From Streptomyces sp. NBC_00433 (GTDB lineage: Bacteria; Actinomycetota; Actinomycetes; Streptomycetales; Streptomycetaceae), in the NCBI GenBank assembly GCA_036015235.1, contig CP107926.1, forward strand, positions 1,054,001-1,118,000: a stretch of 64,000 nucleotides of DNA. The letters are read 5' to 3'. Every line of letters begins with the position of its first letter. The first letter of the stretch is position 1. Positions 3,627 through 44,522 of this stretch are shown here, piece by piece. The notes beneath the pieces are model-generated. The model had not been told where the DNA came from, ran no database searches, and worked only from the letters and a program-made list of their open reading frames with translations. The position numbers and the translations under genes are program-made.

Positions 3627-4135
3627 AGCGATGCTGCTAGATCATCAACATCCGATTTCTCACCGACCACTTGCCGCCCGGGCCGGAGCGTTGGACTAGT
3701 TGTTGTCTGCGCTGGTCATCCGGTCCGTTTATGACCGCTGTAAAACCGTCCCGACTCCAAGGGGCAGCACCAAAATCCCCCTCCTGTTCCAAGCTGCGGC
3801 GAACCGTGGGAACAGCACCACATCGGCCGTATGGCTCTCAATGCTTTGCACACCCTGAGCAGGAGCACTCCGATGCAAATTTCCTGACACTGCGCACCCG
3901 GCCGATTGAGGTCGGCCATGCGAAGCTGCCGATCTGATGCCCTACGAAGACCTACCGACTCGACTGCCGGCGGGGACTCCGCACATTGGCGATTCTCATT
4001 TGCCTACACCGACCTACGGCAACCCGAAGGAACTCTGGAGCCGTCGGCTAAGGGTGGTCGTCCAGTGATCGATGCCCCGGCATTGAACACTGGAAGGCCC
4101 GAATGCAGCCGTGGTTGCACCGCAACGTTGAGCGG
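3627..4135. other. 509-base stretch without a convincing gene
   Basis: Several short overlapping frames exist on both strands, but none has a ribosome site, third-position GC bias or recognisable motifs. Base composition is visibly less GC-rich than the flanks, consistent with imported or decaying DNA. Confidence 0.55.
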
Positions 4136-4804
4136 TTACAAGAGCTTGTCGAGAGAGGCTTCGATGCCGGCAGCGCGCAGTTCCGACACGAGACCCATAC
4201 GCCATGCTTTGTTCGGGTCGAGGGGCACGTAGGTGACTCCCAGGTAGTCGCTGGGGATTTCCACACCCGGCTCATGGAGTGCCGCCACCTTGTTGCGGCC
4301 GAGTAGCCCGAGGAACAAGCCAAGCTCAAGGATCACATTTTGACGCGCGCGCCTCTGCAGGCTGCCCCCACCCATGAGGCCACCCTCGTCGTCTCCGGTC
4401 AACAGGACAACCGCGTACGCGGCCTTCTGAGCGTGTTCAAGTAGCTTCCCCAGGATGTCCGCTCCCTGTCCAGCCATTTCGTCGAGGACAATAACCTCCC
4501 GCTTAGTGCATCGCTCCAAAAAGCCCCGGACATCCTCCCGCGACAAATGGTCGCGACCATGGACAAGGAAGATCGCTTCGCCGGACTCGCTACGGTCGAC
4601 ACGAGGCGCCGCATACGACCAGAGTTCAAGTCGATCGCGGATAGATTCCAATACACGCGAACATCCTATCTCGCCCATGTGGCCGCTCGTCCTCGTCTTG
4701 ACAGACGGTCCAAACTCCCGACCAATATCTCTGGCGGGCAGTGGTAGGGACTTCAGCGCCGGGGGCGTGCGGCGGCGGTCCGGAATCACGGCGACCCGTC
4801 GCAC
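4136..4804 (-). CDS. TIR-like (CAP12/Pycsar-type, PF10137-like) nucleotide-binding protein
   Basis: The product is 222 aa from GTG 4804; an internal ATG at 4678 (180 aa) is an alternative. The C-terminal ~150 residues match the predicted nucleotide-binding TIR-like family: IFLVHGRD at the first strand, a RGFLE-type helix, VVLLTGDDEG, and the hallmark RARQNVILELGLFLGLLGR segment containing the Glu that in CAP12-type proteins serves NAD+ cleavage. Family knowledge: such domains act as NADase effectors in CBASS/Pycsar anti-phage systems, but standalone copies of unknown role are common. No cyclase or sensor gene is adjacent. Codon use is less GC-biased than in neighbouring genes, which suggests acquisition. 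Confidence 0.75.
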   Translation of the reverse strand: MRRVAVIPDRRRTPPALKSLPLPARDIGREFGPSVKTRTSGHMGEIGCSRVLESIRDRLELWSYAAPRVDRSESGEAIFLVHGRDHLSREDVRGFLERCTKREVIVLDEMAGQGADILGKLLEHAQKAAYAVVLLTGDDEGGLMGGGSLQRRARQNVILELGLFLGLLGRNKVAALHEPGVEIPSDYLGVTYVPLDPNKAWRMGLVSELRAAGIEASLDKLL

Positions 4805-13230: not shown

Positions 13231-14208
13231 TCAGCGGGCGCCGATCTCGGCGGGCAGGCCGAAGGCCGCGAAAATCTCCGCCTCCTGGAAGACGGTGGTC
13301 CTGCTGATGCCGGCGGCGGTGACGGTGAAGACCTGAAGGGTGTGCAGCTCGAACACCCCGCCGTCACCGCCCCGGTAGGCCGCGAAGCCCGGCTGGCCGT
13401 TCGCGGCGATCGGTACGAGGCGCCAGTCGGTGCCCGCCTTGTCGAAGACCCAGTCCATGAACAGGCCGTAGTTCTCGGGCCCGACGAACCAGTTGAGCAT
13501 CGGGGGCATCTCCATGAGGACGTCATGGGTGAGGAGCTGCTTGAGCCCTTCGATGTCCGCCTTCTCGAACGCCGCCATGTAGCGCTCCACGCAGGCCCGT
13601 TGCTCCGCCCGCGTGGGCTCGGCGACCTGGTCCTCAAGGACGCCGGCCTCGTTCAGCCGGGCGCGCGCCCGCTGCAGCGAGCTGTTGACCGACGCGACCG
13701 TCGTACCGAGGATGTCGGCTGTCTCGGCGGCGGAGAAGGCGAGCACCTCGCGCAGGATCAACGCGGCACGCTGGCGTGCGGAGAGGTGCTGCATCGCGGC
13801 GACGAAGGCCAGCCGCAGGCTGCCGCGGTCGACGGCCGCGCCGGCCGGGTCCCCCAGGTGCAGCAGCGCGTCGGGCACGGGCTGGAGCCAGGTGGCCTCG
13901 CCCCCTGGGGCCAGCGGCTGGAGGGGGTCGCTCTGGGCGACCATTCCCGAGGGCAGCGGTCGGCGGCCGCGGCTCTCCAGGGCGGTCAGGCAGGCGTTGG
14001 TCGCGATCCGGTACAGCCAGGTGCGCAGCGAGCCGCGTGTGCCGTCGTAGCGGTTCCGCGCCCGCAGAGCCCGCAGGTAGGTCTCCTGCACGAGGTCTTC
14101 CGCGTCGTGGACCGAGCCGAGCATCCGGTAGCAGTGGGCCAGCAACTCCGACCGGTAGGGCTCGAGCCGGCGCTCGAAGTCCGCCATGTCCTCGGTCGTG
14201 GTCGCCAC
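13231..14208 (-). CDS. ECF sigma factor with C-terminal SnoaL-like domain (SigG/TIGR02960-like)
   Basis: The product is 325 aa. Sigma region 2 (residues ~10-75) reads LEPYRSELLAHCYRMLGSVHDAEDLVQETYLRA. Region 4 (~140-195) has LSARQRAALILREVLAFSAAETADIL and SVNSSLQRARARL. The last ~120 residues form a SnoaL/NTF2-like domain that starts with RYMAAFEKADIEGLKQLLTHDV. Such sigma factors lack a classical anti-sigma partner; the SnoaL domain itself is thought to control activity. It is divergent from a standalone SnoaL gene 180 bases away. Confidence 0.9.
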   Translation of the reverse strand: MATTTEDMADFERRLEPYRSELLAHCYRMLGSVHDAEDLVQETYLRALRARNRYDGTRGSLRTWLYRIATNACLTALESRGRRPLPSGMVAQSDPLQPLAPGGEATWLQPVPDALLHLGDPAGAAVDRGSLRLAFVAAMQHLSARQRAALILREVLAFSAAETADILGTTVASVNSSLQRARARLNEAGVLEDQVAEPTRAEQRACVERYMAAFEKADIEGLKQLLTHDVLMEMPPMLNWFVGPENYGLFMDWVFDKAGTDWRLVPIAANGQPGFAAYRGGDGGVFELHTLQVFTVTAAGISRTTVFQEAEIFAAFGLPAEIGAR

Positions 14209-14390
14209 CGCGGGCCCCCTCCTGTCGCTTCCCCCGCCGGGGACCCTACCGTGCCGGCAGGGGCCGGAAGGAAGTCGCCGCGGCCGCGATGAGTTCGGGC
14301 CCGCCCGCCGGTAGGTATCCGCGGAGGCGAAGACTCCCGGTGAGCCGCGGACCGCGGCGATCCGTACCGGTACGGTGAAGCGAGGGAACC

Positions 14391-14804
14391 TTGAGTACGA
14401 ACCAGAGGCACGCGGCCGACGAGACCGCCATCCTCAAGGTGCTGAAAGACCTCTACGAGGCCTGGGACGACAACGACGCCGACACTTTCGTGGCCGACTA
14501 CACGGAGGACGCCAGCGCGATCCTGCCCGGGTCCTACCGGAAGTCCAGGGACGAGATCCGCGACAGCATGGCGGCCGGCTTCGGCAGCCACCTGAAGGGC
14601 TCGACCACCGTCGACAAGGTGCTGGACGTCCGCTTCCTCGGCGACGACAACGCCGTGGTGGTCAGCGAGACGGGCATCCTCTTCCCCGGCGAGACCGAGG
14701 TGCCGGCCGACCGGCTGGCGGTCGCGACCTGGGTGGTCACCCGGCGGGACGGCAGGTGGCTGCTCGCGGCCTACCACAACTGCCCCGCCGTGCCCGTGAG
14801 CTGA
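14391..14804 (+). CDS. SgcJ/EcaC-type SnoaL-like (NTF2-fold) protein
   Basis: The product is 137 aa from TTG 14391, preceded by GAAGCGAGGGA. The pattern DETAILKVLKDLYEAWDDNDADTF followed by YTEDASAILPG and the closing strand GRWLLAAYHNCP is that of the SgcJ/EcaC family of NTF2-fold proteins (named from antibiotic clusters; catalytic role usually unproven). The gene faces away from the SnoaL-type sigma factor and may be under its control. A strong hairpin follows. Confidence 0.85.
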   Translation: MSTNQRHAADETAILKVLKDLYEAWDDNDADTFVADYTEDASAILPGSYRKSRDEIRDSMAAGFGSHLKGSTTVDKVLDVRFLGDDNAVVVSETGILFPGETEVPADRLAVATWVVTRRDGRWLLAAYHNCPAVPVS

Positions 14805-14818
14805 GGCCGCGCCCGGCC

Positions 14819-14858
14819 CTGACGCCCCTCCCCCGCCGGCGCGGCGGAGGGGCGTCAG
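14819..14858. terminator. bidirectional hairpin terminator
   Basis: A 13-bp perfect inverted repeat (14819-14831 / 14846-14858) with a GC-rich loop that can pair further. It lies between convergent genes, and its right arm covers the stop codon of the membrane protein gene. Confidence 0.75.
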
Positions 14859-15385
14859 GCGCCGGGGGCCGGCTGGAGCACGCGGGCATACCAGCGGCGG
14901 TGGACGACCGGCTCGACGCAGAGGACCGCGGCGCCCGCGACCGCGCCCACGAGCAGCGACGCCCAGCCGCCGCCGTTGGCGACCGCGCCGAGGCAGGCGG
15001 CGGCGACGGCGAGCGGGCGCAGCAGCGTCAGCGGGCCCAGGCCCACGACCATGGCCAGGGTCCCGGCGCGGAAGGGCAGGGCGAAGTAGGCGGCGAGCGC
15101 GAGCAGCACGGCGGCTGCGTAGGCCGCCGGCGGAAGCAGGTAGCCGATGCCGCCGTCGGCGAGTACGGCATAGGCGCGGGCCCGGTCGGGTGCGGCCAGC
15201 AGCACGGCGCCGGCCGTCAGCGCGGGGGCCAGGAGCAGGAAGGAGCCGACGGTGAGACCGCGCAGCGCGGCTCGGGCGTTGGCGCGGTGCTTGCGGATAC
15301 GGGCGTCGCGTCCCGCGTAGGCGCGGAAGCCGCTGAAGGCCGCGTCGACCAGGCCGAGCGCGGCGAGCGGCAGGGCGGGGGTCAT
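14855..15385 (-). CDS. multi-pass membrane protein of unknown function
   Basis: The product is 176 aa. About five hydrophobic segments alternate with short Arg-rich loops (GRDARIRKHRANARAALRG after the first). The start ATG 15385 overlaps the stop of the upstream methyltransferase gene by four bases, so the two are co-translated. The pairing suggests a membrane partner or product exporter for the methyltransferase, but no family is recognised. Confidence 0.8.
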   Translation of the reverse strand: MTPALPLAALGLVDAAFSGFRAYAGRDARIRKHRANARAALRGLTVGSFLLLAPALTAGAVLLAAPDRARAYAVLADGGIGYLLPPAAYAAAVLLALAAYFALPFRAGTLAMVVGLGPLTLLRPLAVAAACLGAVANGGGWASLLVGAVAGAAVLCVEPVVHRRWYARVLQPAPGA

Positions 15386-40021: not shown

Positions 40022-41074
40022 CTATTCGCGCGCCGAGCGCCGTGCGCGCGTCCGGCGTGGGCCGGCCACGCTCGCCTCCGCGACGGGGGCCGCCCCCTTG
40101 CGCGGCTTGACGCCGGCCTCGCGGGCGGGTGGCGCCGCCTCGTCCGCGCCGCCGCGCCGCGACAGGGCGGCGAGCCGGCAAGCCCGCTCGGCGTTGTAGT
40201 GCGCCCCGACCAGCAGCGCGAGATTGCTGAACCACAGCCACACCAGGAAGGCGACAGCGCCGGACAGCTGGCCGTAGAGCCGGTCGTACGTGCCCAGGCG
40301 GGCGGTGTACGTCGCGAAGCCGGCCGAGGTGAGCAGCCACAGGCCGACCGCCACGCCGCCGCCCGGCGCGGTCGCCCGCAGGCCCCGTGCCGTGGGCGGA
40401 CCCGAGCGGAAGAGGATCAGCACGGTCGCCGCGGCCACGGCGACCAGGACCGGCCAGCGCAGCGCTCGCCATGCCGACACCGCCGGCTTGCCGAGGTGGA
40501 ACAGGTCGCCCGCCCGGTGGGCGAATTCGCCGGTGACGACCACGCAGATGGTGCTGCACGCCAGCAGGACGAGCAGCATGAGCGCGGTGATCACGACGCG
40601 CGGCGCGGCACGCCAGGCGGGCCGGTGGTCGGCGACGCCGTGGATGTGGTGCAGTGCCCGCCGGAAGACCGCGGCATAGCTGCACGCGGCCCAGGCGGCG
40701 CCCGCCCCGCTGACCGCCGCGAGCGAGGTGGTGCCCGAGGCGTCCTCGGCCATGTGCCGCAGCGCGTCGGCCACCAGCGGCCGCGACTGCCCCGGCATCA
40801 GCACTTCGAGCCCGCCGGGGACCCCGCTGCCGTCGGGGCTGCCGGTCAGCCCGACCAGGGACAGGGTCATCAGCAGGGCGGGGAAGAGGGCCAGCACCGC
40901 GTAGTAGGTGAGCGCGGCGGCCCGCTCGGTCGCGTCCTTGTCCCAGGCCGCTGCCAGGGCGCGTACGAGGTTCCTGCACATCCCGAACACCGCGACCACC
41001 CGTGACGCCCGCCGCCGGGGTTTCCCGCCGGACTTCCCCGGCTCGCCGGTCGACACGCCTTCGCCAGTCGCCAC
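40022..41074 (-). CDS. YihY/BrkB family membrane protein
   Basis: The product is 350 aa from GTG 41074 with GGGTGGGGG upstream; the open frame to 41203 has no better start. Six transmembrane helices carry the family pattern: AAALTYYAVLALFPALLMTLSLVGL, WAACSYAAVFRRALHHIHGV, RPAWRAAPRVVITALMLLVLL, TAPGGGVAVGLWLLTSAGFATYTARLGTYDRLYGQLSGAVAFLVWLWFSNLALLVGAHYNAE. The C-terminus is Arg/Ala-rich. Once thought to be RNase BN, the family is now considered a transporter or membrane factor of unclear role. Confidence 0.93.
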   Translation of the reverse strand: MATGEGVSTGEPGKSGGKPRRRASRVVAVFGMCRNLVRALAAAWDKDATERAAALTYYAVLALFPALLMTLSLVGLTGSPDGSGVPGGLEVLMPGQSRPLVADALRHMAEDASGTTSLAAVSGAGAAWAACSYAAVFRRALHHIHGVADHRPAWRAAPRVVITALMLLVLLACSTICVVVTGEFAHRAGDLFHLGKPAVSAWRALRWPVLVAVAAATVLILFRSGPPTARGLRATAPGGGVAVGLWLLTSAGFATYTARLGTYDRLYGQLSGAVAFLVWLWFSNLALLVGAHYNAERACRLAALSRRGGADEAAPPAREAGVKPRKGAAPVAEASVAGPRRTRARRSARE

Positions 41075-41210
41075 TGCTACCCCCACCCGGCCCGAGGCCG
41101 TCCGCACCACACCTGTCGCGGAAGGTCTTCCCCCGTTTCGGCCGGACCAACGTGCCTGGTCGAACCGGGTCGAGGCAGACACCCGTCCGACCGTCCGAGG
41201 CACCTTCGCG

Positions 41211-44200
41211 TCACCCGGCCTCGTCCGCGTCCCGCCGCTGCCCGGCGGCCTCAGCCGGCGCGGGAAGGTCGTCCCATGTCCACGGGAGCGCCGCGCTCCC
41301 GTCCGGCCCGCGTCCGTACGGGATCAGCCGGGCCGGGAGGGCGGCTCCGTCGCTCAGGGCCCGCTCCGTCAGGGCCTCGGCCTCGGCCTGGGCCCCCGCC
41401 TTCGACAGGGCCCGCAGCAGGGCGTCCACGCCCGCGGCGTGGGTGGTGGCGGCGTGCGCGGCGGGATTCCGGTCGAGCAGCGCCCGTACGTCCCGGTCCG
41501 CCCCGGCGTCCATGAGCCCGTGCAGCAGCAAGGCGACGTCCGCGGGATCCGTGAGGTCGGCGTGTGCCACCGGATCGCCGGCGAGCAGCTCGCCGACCGC
41601 TTCCGTGGCGCCCGCCGCCGTCAGGGCGCTGAGCATCATCCCGGCGATGTCCGTGCGGCCCGGCTCCTGGTCCGCCACCGGGTACTGCGCCAGGAGCGCC
41701 GCCCGAGCGGACACCGGGTCCTCCTCCAGCAGGGCGCGCAGGGCCGCAGGGTCGAGCAGGTCCAGCTCCACCGCCATGCGGTCCAGCAGCGTCTTCCTGT
41801 CCTCGGTGGCGCCGAGCTCGCCCAGTTCCCACAGCAGGGACACGAGGCCGACGAGCACGTCGGAGCCGACCTCGACATGTGCGGCGGGGCCGCGCCCCAG
41901 CAGTCCCGCCACCGCGTCGTCGGCCCCGGCACGGCACAGCGATCCGAGCAGCCGGGCCACCCCGTGGGCGCTCTCCAGGTCGGCGGCGGCGGCAGGGTCG
42001 CGCGCCAGCAGGCGGCGCGCGTGCGGGGAGTCCACCGTGACGAGCGCGTCCAGCAGCTCGGCGACCGCCAGGGCGTCGCCGAGGTCCGCCCTGGCGACGA
42101 GGTCGCAGTGCTCGACCAGCTCCGCCGCCGCGTCGTTCGCACCGGCGCGCAGCAGCTCCCTCAGCATCCAGGGGGTCTCGAAGGGGTCGTCCGGGTCCAG
42201 ATACGCCACGGGGCCGCGTGCCAGGAATTCGGCGACGGCCGCGTCGGCTCCGGCGTCGAGCAGCTCCTTCAGTATTCCCGGCAGGCCGTTCCAGCCCGCC
42301 GTGCGGTACAGCCGCACCCGGCCGATCGCTCCCCGGTCCAGCAGCTCCTGGACGATGGCGCCGGCTCCCACCTCGCGCAGCCGCTTCAGCGTGGGGTAGA
42401 GCGTGACGGAGTCGGCGCCGAAGTCCTCAAGACGGCCGATCAGGCCGCGTTGCCGGAGGTCGGCCACGGCCTCCTCGCCGGAGGGTCCCGCTTCCGCGAG
42501 CGCCTCCAGCAGGTCGAACAGGTCGAAAGGATTCCTCAGGGAGCAGTGCGCGGCCGTCCACCGGGCGGCCGTCCCCGCGGGATCGAGCGCGCCGTGCAGG
42601 CGGCGTACCAGCACGGCAGGGGCGGAGGGGGCGCCCGCGAGCACCGCGCGCCGCCACAGGAGGGCCGCATGGCGGCGCAGCCCGCGGTCCCAGGCGGACT
42701 GCCCCAGGCGCAGCAGGTCACCTGGGTCGTCGGCCTGTTCCAGCAGGCCGTCCCAGAGAGCGGCGTCCGGGCGGTGGCCGGCCGGGTGCCCGCGCATGTG
42801 CTGGTCCAGATAGTCGGCGGGCTCGAAGACCGCGGGTGCGCCGGACCGCGACCGCAGCGCGGTGAGCGCGGTGAGCGTACGGACGGCGGTGGGTGTGCCG
42901 TCACCGCGCCTGCCTCCGCTGAGCGAGGACAGGTCCCGCACCTCCCAGCCGGGGTCGCCACTGCGCTGCCTCGCCGAGAGGGCGCCGTCGGCGGCTCGGG
43001 CCAGCAGGGCCGCCCGCATCGGGGCGTGGTGGCCGAGGCGCCGGGCTTCGAGCGACGCGCTGATCAGCGCGTGCTCCGACGGGGTGAAGAAGACGCCGGG
43101 ACCTGAAAGGTAGGCCGCGAGCAGTTGCGGTCCGCCGGTCAGCTGCTGGATGACCCGGCCGTCGTCGCGGCCCGCCTCCAGTGCGTGGCCCATGCGCAGG
43201 TCGTCGGACAGGTCCTCCCACGCCGTCAGGTCGTCGTCGTCCAGGTTCGGCGGCACGGTCAGCCGCAGGGTCAGCGCCGTGTGGCCGAGCAGCGCGGCGG
43301 CCTGGACGTGGCCGGTGCGGTCCGGGTCCGTGATCTCCGTCCAGTAGGGGTGGGTCCACAGCGTGGCGAGCGCCACCACCCCCGGCTCCCGCGCCAGGCA
43401 GCGGTGGAGTGCCTCGGCGGCGGCCTCGCCCTCGGCGCCGAAGAAGAACCGCTGGGCCTCGTTCAGCCACAGCACCGACCCGCTCCCGACCTGGCCGGAG
43501 ACGAGCAGGGACAGCAGGTCGGAGGCGGTGCTCGGCCTGAGCAGGGGCTGCTCGGGGGCGCATTCGAGCAGCGCTTCGTAGAGGGCGCGGGTCTTGCCGG
43601 TCGCCGACTCGCCGGTGAGGACCAGCAGCCGGGGCATTCGGCCGTCGAGCGCCGTGTCGAGCGCGTCGCGGAGCCGCGTGTCGTGCTCGCGGGTCAGGTA
43701 CGGCGTCAGCGGCCGTTCCGCCGCGTCGTCGGACCGGTCACCGGGAAGGGGCGCGCGGTGCACTTCGAGAACGGTCGGCGTGAATCCCCCGACGGGCGGC
43801 GCGGCCGGCGGGTCGCTGCCGCTGGCCTCCTCGCGGAGCAGGTGGCGCAGCGTGGTGTAGGCGGCGTCGTCGCGGGAGCGCGGCTGCACGACGCTGAAGT
43901 GGTCGCCGGGCAGCACTCCGCTGCGGGGAAAGGCGCCCTGTGCGGACGCGCGGGGCACCACGCGGTCGCTCTCTGCGGCGTAGACGGAGAAAGGGATGGG
44001 GCACGTGCGCTCGCTGACCGCCTCGGTGCCGACGATGTCGCGCAGGACGGCCGTGTGGGTGTCGCGGACGTCCTCGTCGAGCGTCCGCAGCTGCCGCTCC
44101 TGCGGGTTGCCCCCCAGGATCTGCCGGCGCGCGCTCCGGGCGATCTCGGAGCCGGCGTTCGGGCAGGCGAAGAGCACGACCCGCCGGATGCGGGTCAGCT

Positions 44201-44522
44201 CCCTGCCGCGGCCCTCGGCGAGCATCCGCACCAGATAGCGCTGGATGACCAGCCCGCCCATGCTGTGCCCGACCAGCACCAGCCGCCGGTCCGCGCCCTC
44301 GATCTCCAGATGTGTCTTCAGGTGGTCGGCGACGGTGCTCAACGAGGGCAGCGCCCGGTCGGGCCGCAGCCGGGTGAAGCCGGTCGCGTATCCGAAGGTC
44401 CCGGTGTCCACGAAGCCCAGGTCCGGGTCGTCGTCGATCAGCGAGGTGAACCGCTTCCAGACCTTCGGCCCCGAGTTGAAGCCATGGACGAACACGACGC
44501 CCAGCCGGCCCCCGTCACCCAT
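41211..44522 (-). CDS. alpha/beta hydrolase - P-loop NTPase - 36-residue-repeat protein (STAND/NLR-like)
   Basis: The product is 1103 aa; GGGGGAGGG precedes ATG 44522. Residues 1-230 are a lipase/PGAP1-like alpha/beta hydrolase: VVFVHGFNSG, nucleophile S87 in LVGHSMGG, D186 (ESDRVVP), H208 (GDHFSV). Residues 270-520 are a P-loop NTPase with Walker A GESATGKT (304-311) and Walker B VLWLNEAQ (350-357); the A and B segments and the ALATLWTHPYW strand resemble a P-loop module seen fused to many effectors in Streptomyces. Residues ~690-1056 contain about ten degenerate 36-residue repeats with consensus LLxRDPxAHADL...LLxALxxAGADxAV. There is no signal or membrane segment. The effector-NTPase-repeat order is that of STAND conflict proteins; the role is inferred. 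Confidence 0.87.
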   Translation of the reverse strand: MGDGGRLGVVFVHGFNSGPKVWKRFTSLIDDDPDLGFVDTGTFGYATGFTRLRPDRALPSLSTVADHLKTHLEIEGADRRLVLVGHSMGGLVIQRYLVRMLAEGRGRELTRIRRVVLFACPNAGSEIARSARRQILGGNPQERQLRTLDEDVRDTHTAVLRDIVGTEAVSERTCPIPFSVYAAESDRVVPRASAQGAFPRSGVLPGDHFSVVQPRSRDDAAYTTLRHLLREEASGSDPPAAPPVGGFTPTVLEVHRAPLPGDRSDDAAERPLTPYLTREHDTRLRDALDTALDGRMPRLLVLTGESATGKTRALYEALLECAPEQPLLRPSTASDLLSLLVSGQVGSGSVLWLNEAQRFFFGAEGEAAAEALHRCLAREPGVVALATLWTHPYWTEITDPDRTGHVQAAALLGHTALTLRLTVPPNLDDDDLTAWEDLSDDLRMGHALEAGRDDGRVIQQLTGGPQLLAAYLSGPGVFFTPSEHALISASLEARRLGHHAPMRAALLARAADGALSARQRSGDPGWEVRDLSSLSGGRRGDGTPTAVRTLTALTALRSRSGAPAVFEPADYLDQHMRGHPAGHRPDAALWDGLLEQADDPGDLLRLGQSAWDRGLRRHAALLWRRAVLAGAPSAPAVLVRRLHGALDPAGTAARWTAAHCSLRNPFDLFDLLEALAEAGPSGEEAVADLRQRGLIGRLEDFGADSVTLYPTLKRLREVGAGAIVQELLDRGAIGRVRLYRTAGWNGLPGILKELLDAGADAAVAEFLARGPVAYLDPDDPFETPWMLRELLRAGANDAAAELVEHCDLVARADLGDALAVAELLDALVTVDSPHARRLLARDPAAAADLESAHGVARLLGSLCRAGADDAVAGLLGRGPAAHVEVGSDVLVGLVSLLWELGELGATEDRKTLLDRMAVELDLLDPAALRALLEEDPVSARAALLAQYPVADQEPGRTDIAGMMLSALTAAGATEAVGELLAGDPVAHADLTDPADVALLLHGLMDAGADRDVRALLDRNPAAHAATTHAAGVDALLRALSKAGAQAEAEALTERALSDGAALPARLIPYGRGPDGSAALPWTWDDLPAPAEAAGQRRDADEAG
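41355..42455 (-). repeat. about ten degenerate 36-residue (108-base) coding repeats
   Basis: Within the STAND-like gene, units start at approximately residues 766, 802, 838, 874, 944, 979 and 1015, each of 36 residues or a few more and built as two helices with an AGAD-type turn; earlier units (690-765) are more diverged. Confidence 0.75.

Follow-up and report, generated by a model that had tools for sequence, protein, structure and literature searches.

A single-gene STAND-like protein of Streptomyces predicted to couple a lipase-like hydrolase to a nucleotide switch and an alpha-alpha repeat array

Within a window of 64,000 nucleotides (the whole stretch analyzed here, positions 1,054,001 to 1,118,000 of contig CP107926.1 from Streptomyces sp. 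NBC_00433), one gene on the minus strand encodes a protein of 1103 residues in which an alpha/beta hydrolase, a STAND-like nucleoside triphosphatase (NTPase), a winged-helix-like domain and alpha-alpha repeats follow one another. We think it probable that this is a STAND-like (NLR-like) conflict protein, encoded by one gene and located inside the cell, in which the repeats sense, the NTPase switches and the lipase-like hydrolase stops the cell. The modular layout of effector, nucleotide switch and repeat sensor, which is like that of plant and animal immune receptors and had been proposed in a first-pass annotation of the window, is supported by the predicted fold, by the varying N-termini of related proteins and by the presence of the hydrolase on other STAND and VMAP cores.

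In the mechanism that we propose, the repeat superhelix would hold the protein off and recognize a trigger, probably a molecule derived from an invader or from damage. Binding of the trigger would free the nucleotide-binding and winged-helix module, which would then bind ATP and assemble; assembly would activate the N-terminal serine hydrolase, presumed to be lipase- or phospholipase-like, and the activated hydrolase would attack membrane lipid or another ester, thus stopping the infected or damaged cell. The sensing and switching steps are proposed because of STAND biology, in which repeats sense and nucleotide-dependent assembly switches. Corresponding steps appear in the available text of PMC13245274 and PMC12169576.

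Domain layout

As first annotated, hydrolase, NTPase and repeats lie in a single open reading frame (ORF), which coincides exactly with the first of the features below (window coordinates, all on the minus strand).

41211..44522 (-), whole gene, 1103 residues; single ORF with ATG start, AlphaFold mean pLDDT 90.3 and pTM 0.74
43818..44510 (-), alpha/beta hydrolase domain, residues ~5-235
44262..44264 (-), codon of catalytic Ser87 in the GHSMGG nucleophile elbow
43965..43967 (-), codon of catalytic Asp186
43899..43901 (-), codon of catalytic His208
43248..43730 (-), nucleotide-binding core, residues ~265-425, from AlphaFold models and Foldseek
43590..43613 (-), Walker A, GESATGKT, residues 304-311
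43452..43475 (-), Walker B, VLWLNEAQ, residues 350-357
43128..43136 (-), GGP, residues 463-465, at the place of the STAND GxP motif
42819..43013 (-), winged-helix-like domain, residues ~504-568; helices and a beta hairpin (553-556/565-568) in both models, our own assignment
41352..42764 (-), C-terminal array of ~36-residue alpha-alpha repeats, residues ~587-1057, predicted sensor, from AlphaFold helix pairs and period analysis

Six homologs among the matches listed align over 99% of the query at 64-71% identity and the models are confident (mean pLDDT 95 for a model of residues 245-700, 90 for the full-length model), and for these reasons the protein is not a chance ORF. Pfam places Abhydrolase_6 above its cut-off at residues 9-212 (E 3e-9) and AAA_16 below it at residues 278-325 (E 2e-4). 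Nothing in NCBIfam exceeded its cut-off for this protein, and PADLOC returned nothing convincing: its best match, DUF626_VIII (E 1e-5), falls in the hydrolase part, LmuA (E 0.012) and WGR_XIII (E 0.35) also appear, and the Avs models were unmatched.

The hydrolase and its catalytic triad

The triad named at first pass (Ser87, Asp186 and His208) is invariant in all 41 aligned hydrolase rows, and the fold, the Ser-Asp-His triad and the GxSxG motif together place the domain in the alpha/beta-hydrolase superfamily. In the structure search the phospholipase PlaB, named by its PDB title, aligned best and lipases occupied the next rows. Because of this fold, and because of the proposal made for alpha/beta hydrolases in the accessible part of PMC8195603, we suggest by analogy that the hydrolase probably acts on membrane lipid. 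Strand 1 of the domain begins at residue 7, which by eye leaves no signal peptide to be seen, and the modeled protein is probably intracellular.

The nucleotide-binding core and its Walker B motif

The P-loop NTPase domain spans residues ~265-500, and the models predict with high confidence an NTPase fold near residues 270-520, where the first-pass annotation had expected it, together with the winged-helix-like domain. Walker A lies where it had been placed, and its defining residues (G304, G309, K310 and T311) occur in 100/100 aligned NTPase rows. Walker B likewise lies at residues 350-357 as first annotated, but its acidic pair is Asn354-Glu355, the Asp being replaced. Position 354 is Asn in 95 of the 100 rows and Asp in five, while Glu355 is retained in 94, and the clade pattern reads LNExQR.

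Proteins of the STAND class have a Walker B of the form hhhhD[D/E] and a sensor-1 Arg after strand 4, and a GxP motif in a helical module, followed by a winged helix, is typical of them. The window protein has a P-loop core with Walker A (GxxxxGKT in 100/100 rows, in the predicted fold), a helical module with GGP (G463 in 96, G464 in 94 and P465 in 93 of 100 rows) followed by the winged-helix-like domain, and an effector, NTPase and repeat layout with a variable effector. The sensor-1 Arg is absent, residues 387-389 being TLW with W389 in 100/100 rows, and for this reason we call the protein STAND-like by fold and layout and not a proven STAND member. A Foldseek search with residues 245-700 retrieved SAMD9 (E 1.7e-8), the STAND protein 6mfv (2e-6), CED-4 (3.5e-5), Avs5 (6.7e-5) and Apaf-1 (2.8e-4), and the full-length model matched Avs3 (E 9e-8). 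VIA-align of the NTPase region gave generic AAA+ proteins without STAND entries in its top 50, an absence that we do not count as evidence.

Judged from the residue alone, the Walker B Asn may mark a switch that binds nucleotide and hardly hydrolyzes it, and its near-fixation makes the protein naturally suited to asking if ATP hydrolysis is required by such switches. In a bolder form, which we advance tentatively and regard as doubtful, the LNE-marked STAND-like clade would bind ATP as a one-shot switch, hydrolyze little or none of it, and fire an intracellular phospholipase on the cell's own membrane at infection. It would then be a bacterial counterpart of fungal sesB NLRs, and exchange of its N-terminus would give it a protease, NADase, nuclease or transcriptional output instead.

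Exchange of effectors on the NTPase

Homologs of the 1103-residue protein were taken as 120 of 186 matches, and two further searches contributed 120 of 127 and 120 of 338. Among the 120 homologs listed, 54 carry the hydrolase and 66 have the NTPase and no hydrolase. The NTPase is at least 40% identical to that of the 1103-residue protein in 40 of the 54 and more distant in the other 14. The 54 include P0112, in which a distant esterase of another type (DUF676) sits on an NTPase relative. A survey of N-termini on related NTPases, suggested at first pass, established that the effector does vary and that classic conflict effectors are included: trypsin in P0204 (Pfam E 5e-10, NTPase 56% identical), TIR in P0229 and P0236 (E 2e-15 and 1e-16, NTPase 34-36% identical) and Cap4 nuclease in L042 (E 2.3e-9, NTPase 37% identical), of which L044 is a near twin by eye. 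An Mrr-like nuclease N-terminus on a 35% identical NTPase (L022) falls below cut-off. The N-termini of 27 loci were read by script, in which a few look misframed, and the subsequent scan covered L042, L015, L021 and pieces of L022, L028 and L041 only.

At the other end of the protein, P0087 has a 52% identical NTPase and, instead of the repeats, carries a peptide deformylase domain (Pfam E 2e-31) at its C-terminus. Caspase-like motifs were seen by eye in P0216. The genome of the window strain holds one further NTPase relative (33% identical, LDE in Walker B) with another N-terminus. This NTPase paralog, which lacks the hydrolase (L007 6990-11156), is flanked by two similar, opposed transposase-like ORFs (3968-4798 and 14139-14978, by eye) and has a near-identical tandem WD40 array beside it (L007 108-1961).

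The hydrolase on other cores

The same genome encodes two paralogs of the hydrolase (56% and 53% identical), each preceding an NTPase and TPRs; the NB-ARC match passes its cut-off in L006 (E 5e-8) and misses it in L005 (E 6e-4). Fusion partners of the hydrolase elsewhere are NACHT (P0138), TIR (P0150), CHAT (P0132), VMAP-M0 and VMAP-C (P0172), WD40 (L052), FG-GAP (L034) and DUF7019 (L039). In genome G004 a 60%-identical hydrolase bears EAD2 (E 5e-10, above cut-off), and its gene is directly followed by a VMAP-C gene (E 2.4e-35), by an AAA_5 gene, which we take to be MoxR-like, and by the gene of a 1708-residue Tubulin_2 protein (L056 7600-17010); vWA was not found at this locus by Pfam at E 0.001. 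Rough ORF calling had here chosen a wrong-strand ORF over the VMAP gene. With its EAD2-hydrolase, VMAP-C, AAA_5 and Tubulin_2 genes this is an unusual VMAP-type locus. In a quick tree of 67 hydrolase rows, from which P0112 is left out, pairing with the window type of NTPase needs at least five changes, four of them forced by well-supported branches, against a shuffled mean of 21.8; accounting for all ten partner labels takes 13 changes. Such a pattern would look like an effector moving now and then between conflict cores.

These partners bear on what the hydrolase might cleave. We consider it improbable that the hydrolase serves a conflict protein as a protease, amidase or deacylase of protein or peptide, for example to process a partner effector. 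Such an activity would fit the CHAT-hydrolase fusion and, as far as the available text of PMC7159879 goes, the statements that alpha/beta hydrolases accompany caspases in VMAP systems and are named among peptidases, and that EAD2 recruits mainly signaling components. The PlaB- and lipase-like fold argues against it, as do the link drawn in the accessible part of PMC8195603 between bDLD3-tied alpha/beta hydrolases and membrane-lipid hydrolysis, and the Pfam scan of 13 other window ORFs, among which no partner effector gene was recognized.

Several further arrangements were noted among these relatives. Two large convergent NB-ARC and TPR proteins, one with and one without hydrolase, lie at L006 4345-12022, and since by eye there is hardly any difference between the TPR units of the two, exchange of repeats between them is possible. 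In L052 and L053 the hydrolase is joined straight onto WD40 repeats, with no NTPase recognized (Pfam on L052 only), and the nucleophile elbow of L053 is altered (HSRGR vs HSMGG). In L055 3475-5031 the hydrolase is followed by a C-terminal part that is macro-domain-like by eye and has no Pfam match at E 0.001.

C-terminal repeats and their rate of change

The repeat array announced at first pass is borne out by a period of 36 and by helix pairs from ~587 to 1057 in the model. A period of 36 is the strongest C-terminal one in 10 of the 14 proteins tested, the 1103-residue protein included; the exceptions are P0060 and P0103 (35), P0087 (47) and P0074 (32). From 58 repeats of 38/74 proteins, taken at exact spacing of 36 and with the fixed anchor only, the consensus is roughly PxAVAxLLxxLRxAGAxxAVxALLxRDPAAHADLTD, with positions 2, 6, 9, 12, 13, 21 and 33 the most variable; we infer that positions 2, 6, 9 and 13 share a single face of the first helix. 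A search for tandem repeats at the DNA level gave short, low-score arrays only.

Searched against the PDB, the clade profile finds designed PPR proteins (E 1e-15), and designed PPRs and PPR10 are in the Foldseek match list of the full model. In the PPR code for RNA recognition, repeat position 5 carries a polar residue. This position is Ala in 39/58 repeats and polar in 5/58, the PPR families of Pfam were unmatched by the 1103-residue protein at E up to 1, and they are not among the 25 families most matched by 41 members. Recognition of RNA in the manner of PPR proteins is thus a very distant prospect, and the PDB match probably reflects the period and the hydrophobic pattern. Because the code residues are absent despite the profile match, we describe the repeats as TPR/PPR-like alpha-alpha repeats and claim no ligand.

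The sole ortholog returned by a search of genome contigs (L008, Streptomyces sp. DI166) allowed substitution rates to be compared along the gene. The nonsynonymous rate (dN) rises from 0.12 in the hydrolase and 0.16 in the NTPase to 0.46 in the repeats (residues 661-1050), at synonymous rates (dS) of 0.69, 0.67 and 0.74, respectively; dS is saturated in the linker, which yields no value, and is 0.55 in the 40-codon tail. Fast change of the repeats relative to this ortholog would look like a sensor under changing selection.

The same comparison speaks to whether the gene might be an unrelated bifunctional fusion or a decaying gene without switch function, as the replaced Walker B Asp and the absence of a defense annotation in PADLOC could suggest. 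The triad, Walker A, GGP and W389 vary little or not at all, the reading frame is open in L008 as in the window and dN/dS is ~0.17-0.24 in hydrolase and NTPase; because of this conservation, we give such a reading hardly any weight.

Conflict protein or regulator

Some observations weigh against a conflict protein. An N-terminal helix-turn-helix (HTH) domain (PF13560) occurs in about 20/120 homologs listed (hand count), because of which part of the family may regulate transcription. The structure matches of the hydrolase also include type II thioesterases and small esterases, other AAA+ proteins (FtsH, RuvB and ORC) share the Foldseek list of residues 245-700, and relaxed constraint on the repeats would give the same dN pattern too.

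The chief rival to our reading is therefore a non-lethal STAND-type regulator, similar to AfsR or MalT, whose hydrolase would make or remove a small signal (an ester, acyl group or lactone) or act on a metabolite, thereby tuning physiology or development without killing; we judge it unlikely, though to be taken seriously. Besides the HTH N-termini and the esterase-like fold, it draws on AfsR, a Streptomyces regulator in which, according to the available text of PMC10936776, NOD and TPR inhibit the output until ATP binds. It fits less well with the trypsin, TIR and Cap4 nuclease domains on related NTPases, with the hydrolase on VMAP, CHAT, TIR and NACHT proteins, and with the patchy distribution and fast-changing repeats. 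We therefore retain the lipase-like conflict protein as the preferred reading.

Distribution and genomic surroundings

Any match to the protein was found in 16/35 genomes of the genus (E 1e-10) and in at least 52/249 genomes of the family (E 1e-20), both counts including the window genome; three candidates were scored per genome in the family survey, so the latter is a lower bound. A match running from hydrolase through repeats occurs in the window genome only among those of the genus, and in the family survey additionally in G210, which matches residues 6-686 at 53% and whose ORF aligns over 7-1067.

Pfam recognized BrkB/YihY, TetR and SDR proteins among the 13 other window ORFs scanned, and on this evidence the surroundings are neither an evident defense island nor a metabolic operon that would explain the gene. 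The BrkB/YihY membrane protein ORF (40022-41203, minus strand) has its listed start 7 bp past the stop of the gene, and co-transcription is possible. An operon of the two is weakened by the Pfam match, which covers the BrkB ORF only from residue 88, so that the true start may lie further on, and by L008, where blastn aligned only the gene and ~60 bp upstream with the window and which thus has different surroundings.

Comparison with known systems

The gene is self-contained and hence testable alone, and it anchors a wider clade of actinobacterial proteins that have exchanged effector, switch and sensor; its product may be a candidate self-destruct or anti-phage alarm. Among known systems, Avs (AVAST) proteins share an N-terminal effector, a central NTPase and a C-terminal alpha-alpha repeat sensor with it; Avs3 and Avs5 were among the structure matches, and a relative of the window NTPase bears a Cap4 nuclease. 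The window protein differs in having no PADLOC Avs match, in its hydrolase where Avs has a nuclease or protease, and in its length of ~1100 residues. SAMD9, a family reported in actinomycetes (PMC5445408), was the best Foldseek match of the NTPase region. Membership was rejected: SAMD9 has a GGT/S Walker A (PMC5445408), whereas that of the window protein is a canonical GKT in 100/100 rows, and AlbA, Sir2-like and OB-fold domains were unmatched in Pfam at E up to 1. The NB-ARC and TPR proteins of the same genome place a hydrolase that is 53-56% identical before NTPase and repeats; they have an NB-ARC-type NTPase and true TPRs where the window protein has its LNE-type NTPase and repeats of 36 residues.

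The NTP-dependent conflict systems of Kaur and Aravind employ the same hydrolase family, with EAD2 beside VMAP or fused to VMAP, and alpha/beta hydrolases are proposed as effector or signaling domains of bacterial conflict systems in the accessible parts of PMC7159879 and PMC8195603. In contrast to those systems (VMAP ternary, EADs, bDLD3), the window gene stands alone: VMAP, vWA, MoxR and EAD were unmatched by Pfam in the gene and the 13 other window ORFs, and no VMAP ternary arrangement was found there. Fungal sesB-like NLRs likewise combine a lipase-like alpha/beta hydrolase with an NTPase and repeats, the hydrolases being compared by description only, and sesB domains are frequent in fungal NLRs according to the available text of PMC4986451; the fungal proteins differ in having NACHT or NB-ARC with ANK, TPR or WD40.

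The first-pass view that a lipase-like effector before such a P-loop module was new to defense was not upheld in that form, given the bacterial proposals (PMC8195603, PMC7159879) and the abundance of sesB NLRs (PMC4986451), as far as the text of these sources was available. No paper naming the hydrolase-NTPase-repeat architecture or the LNE NTPase clade was found by title or start of abstract, and we do not claim absence in print. What is apparently undescribed is a STAND-like clade in which Asn almost always replaces the Walker B Asp, together with its single-gene lipase form, in which a domain proposed as executioner in fungal NLRs is predicted to act as the immediate output of an NLR-like protein of bacteria.

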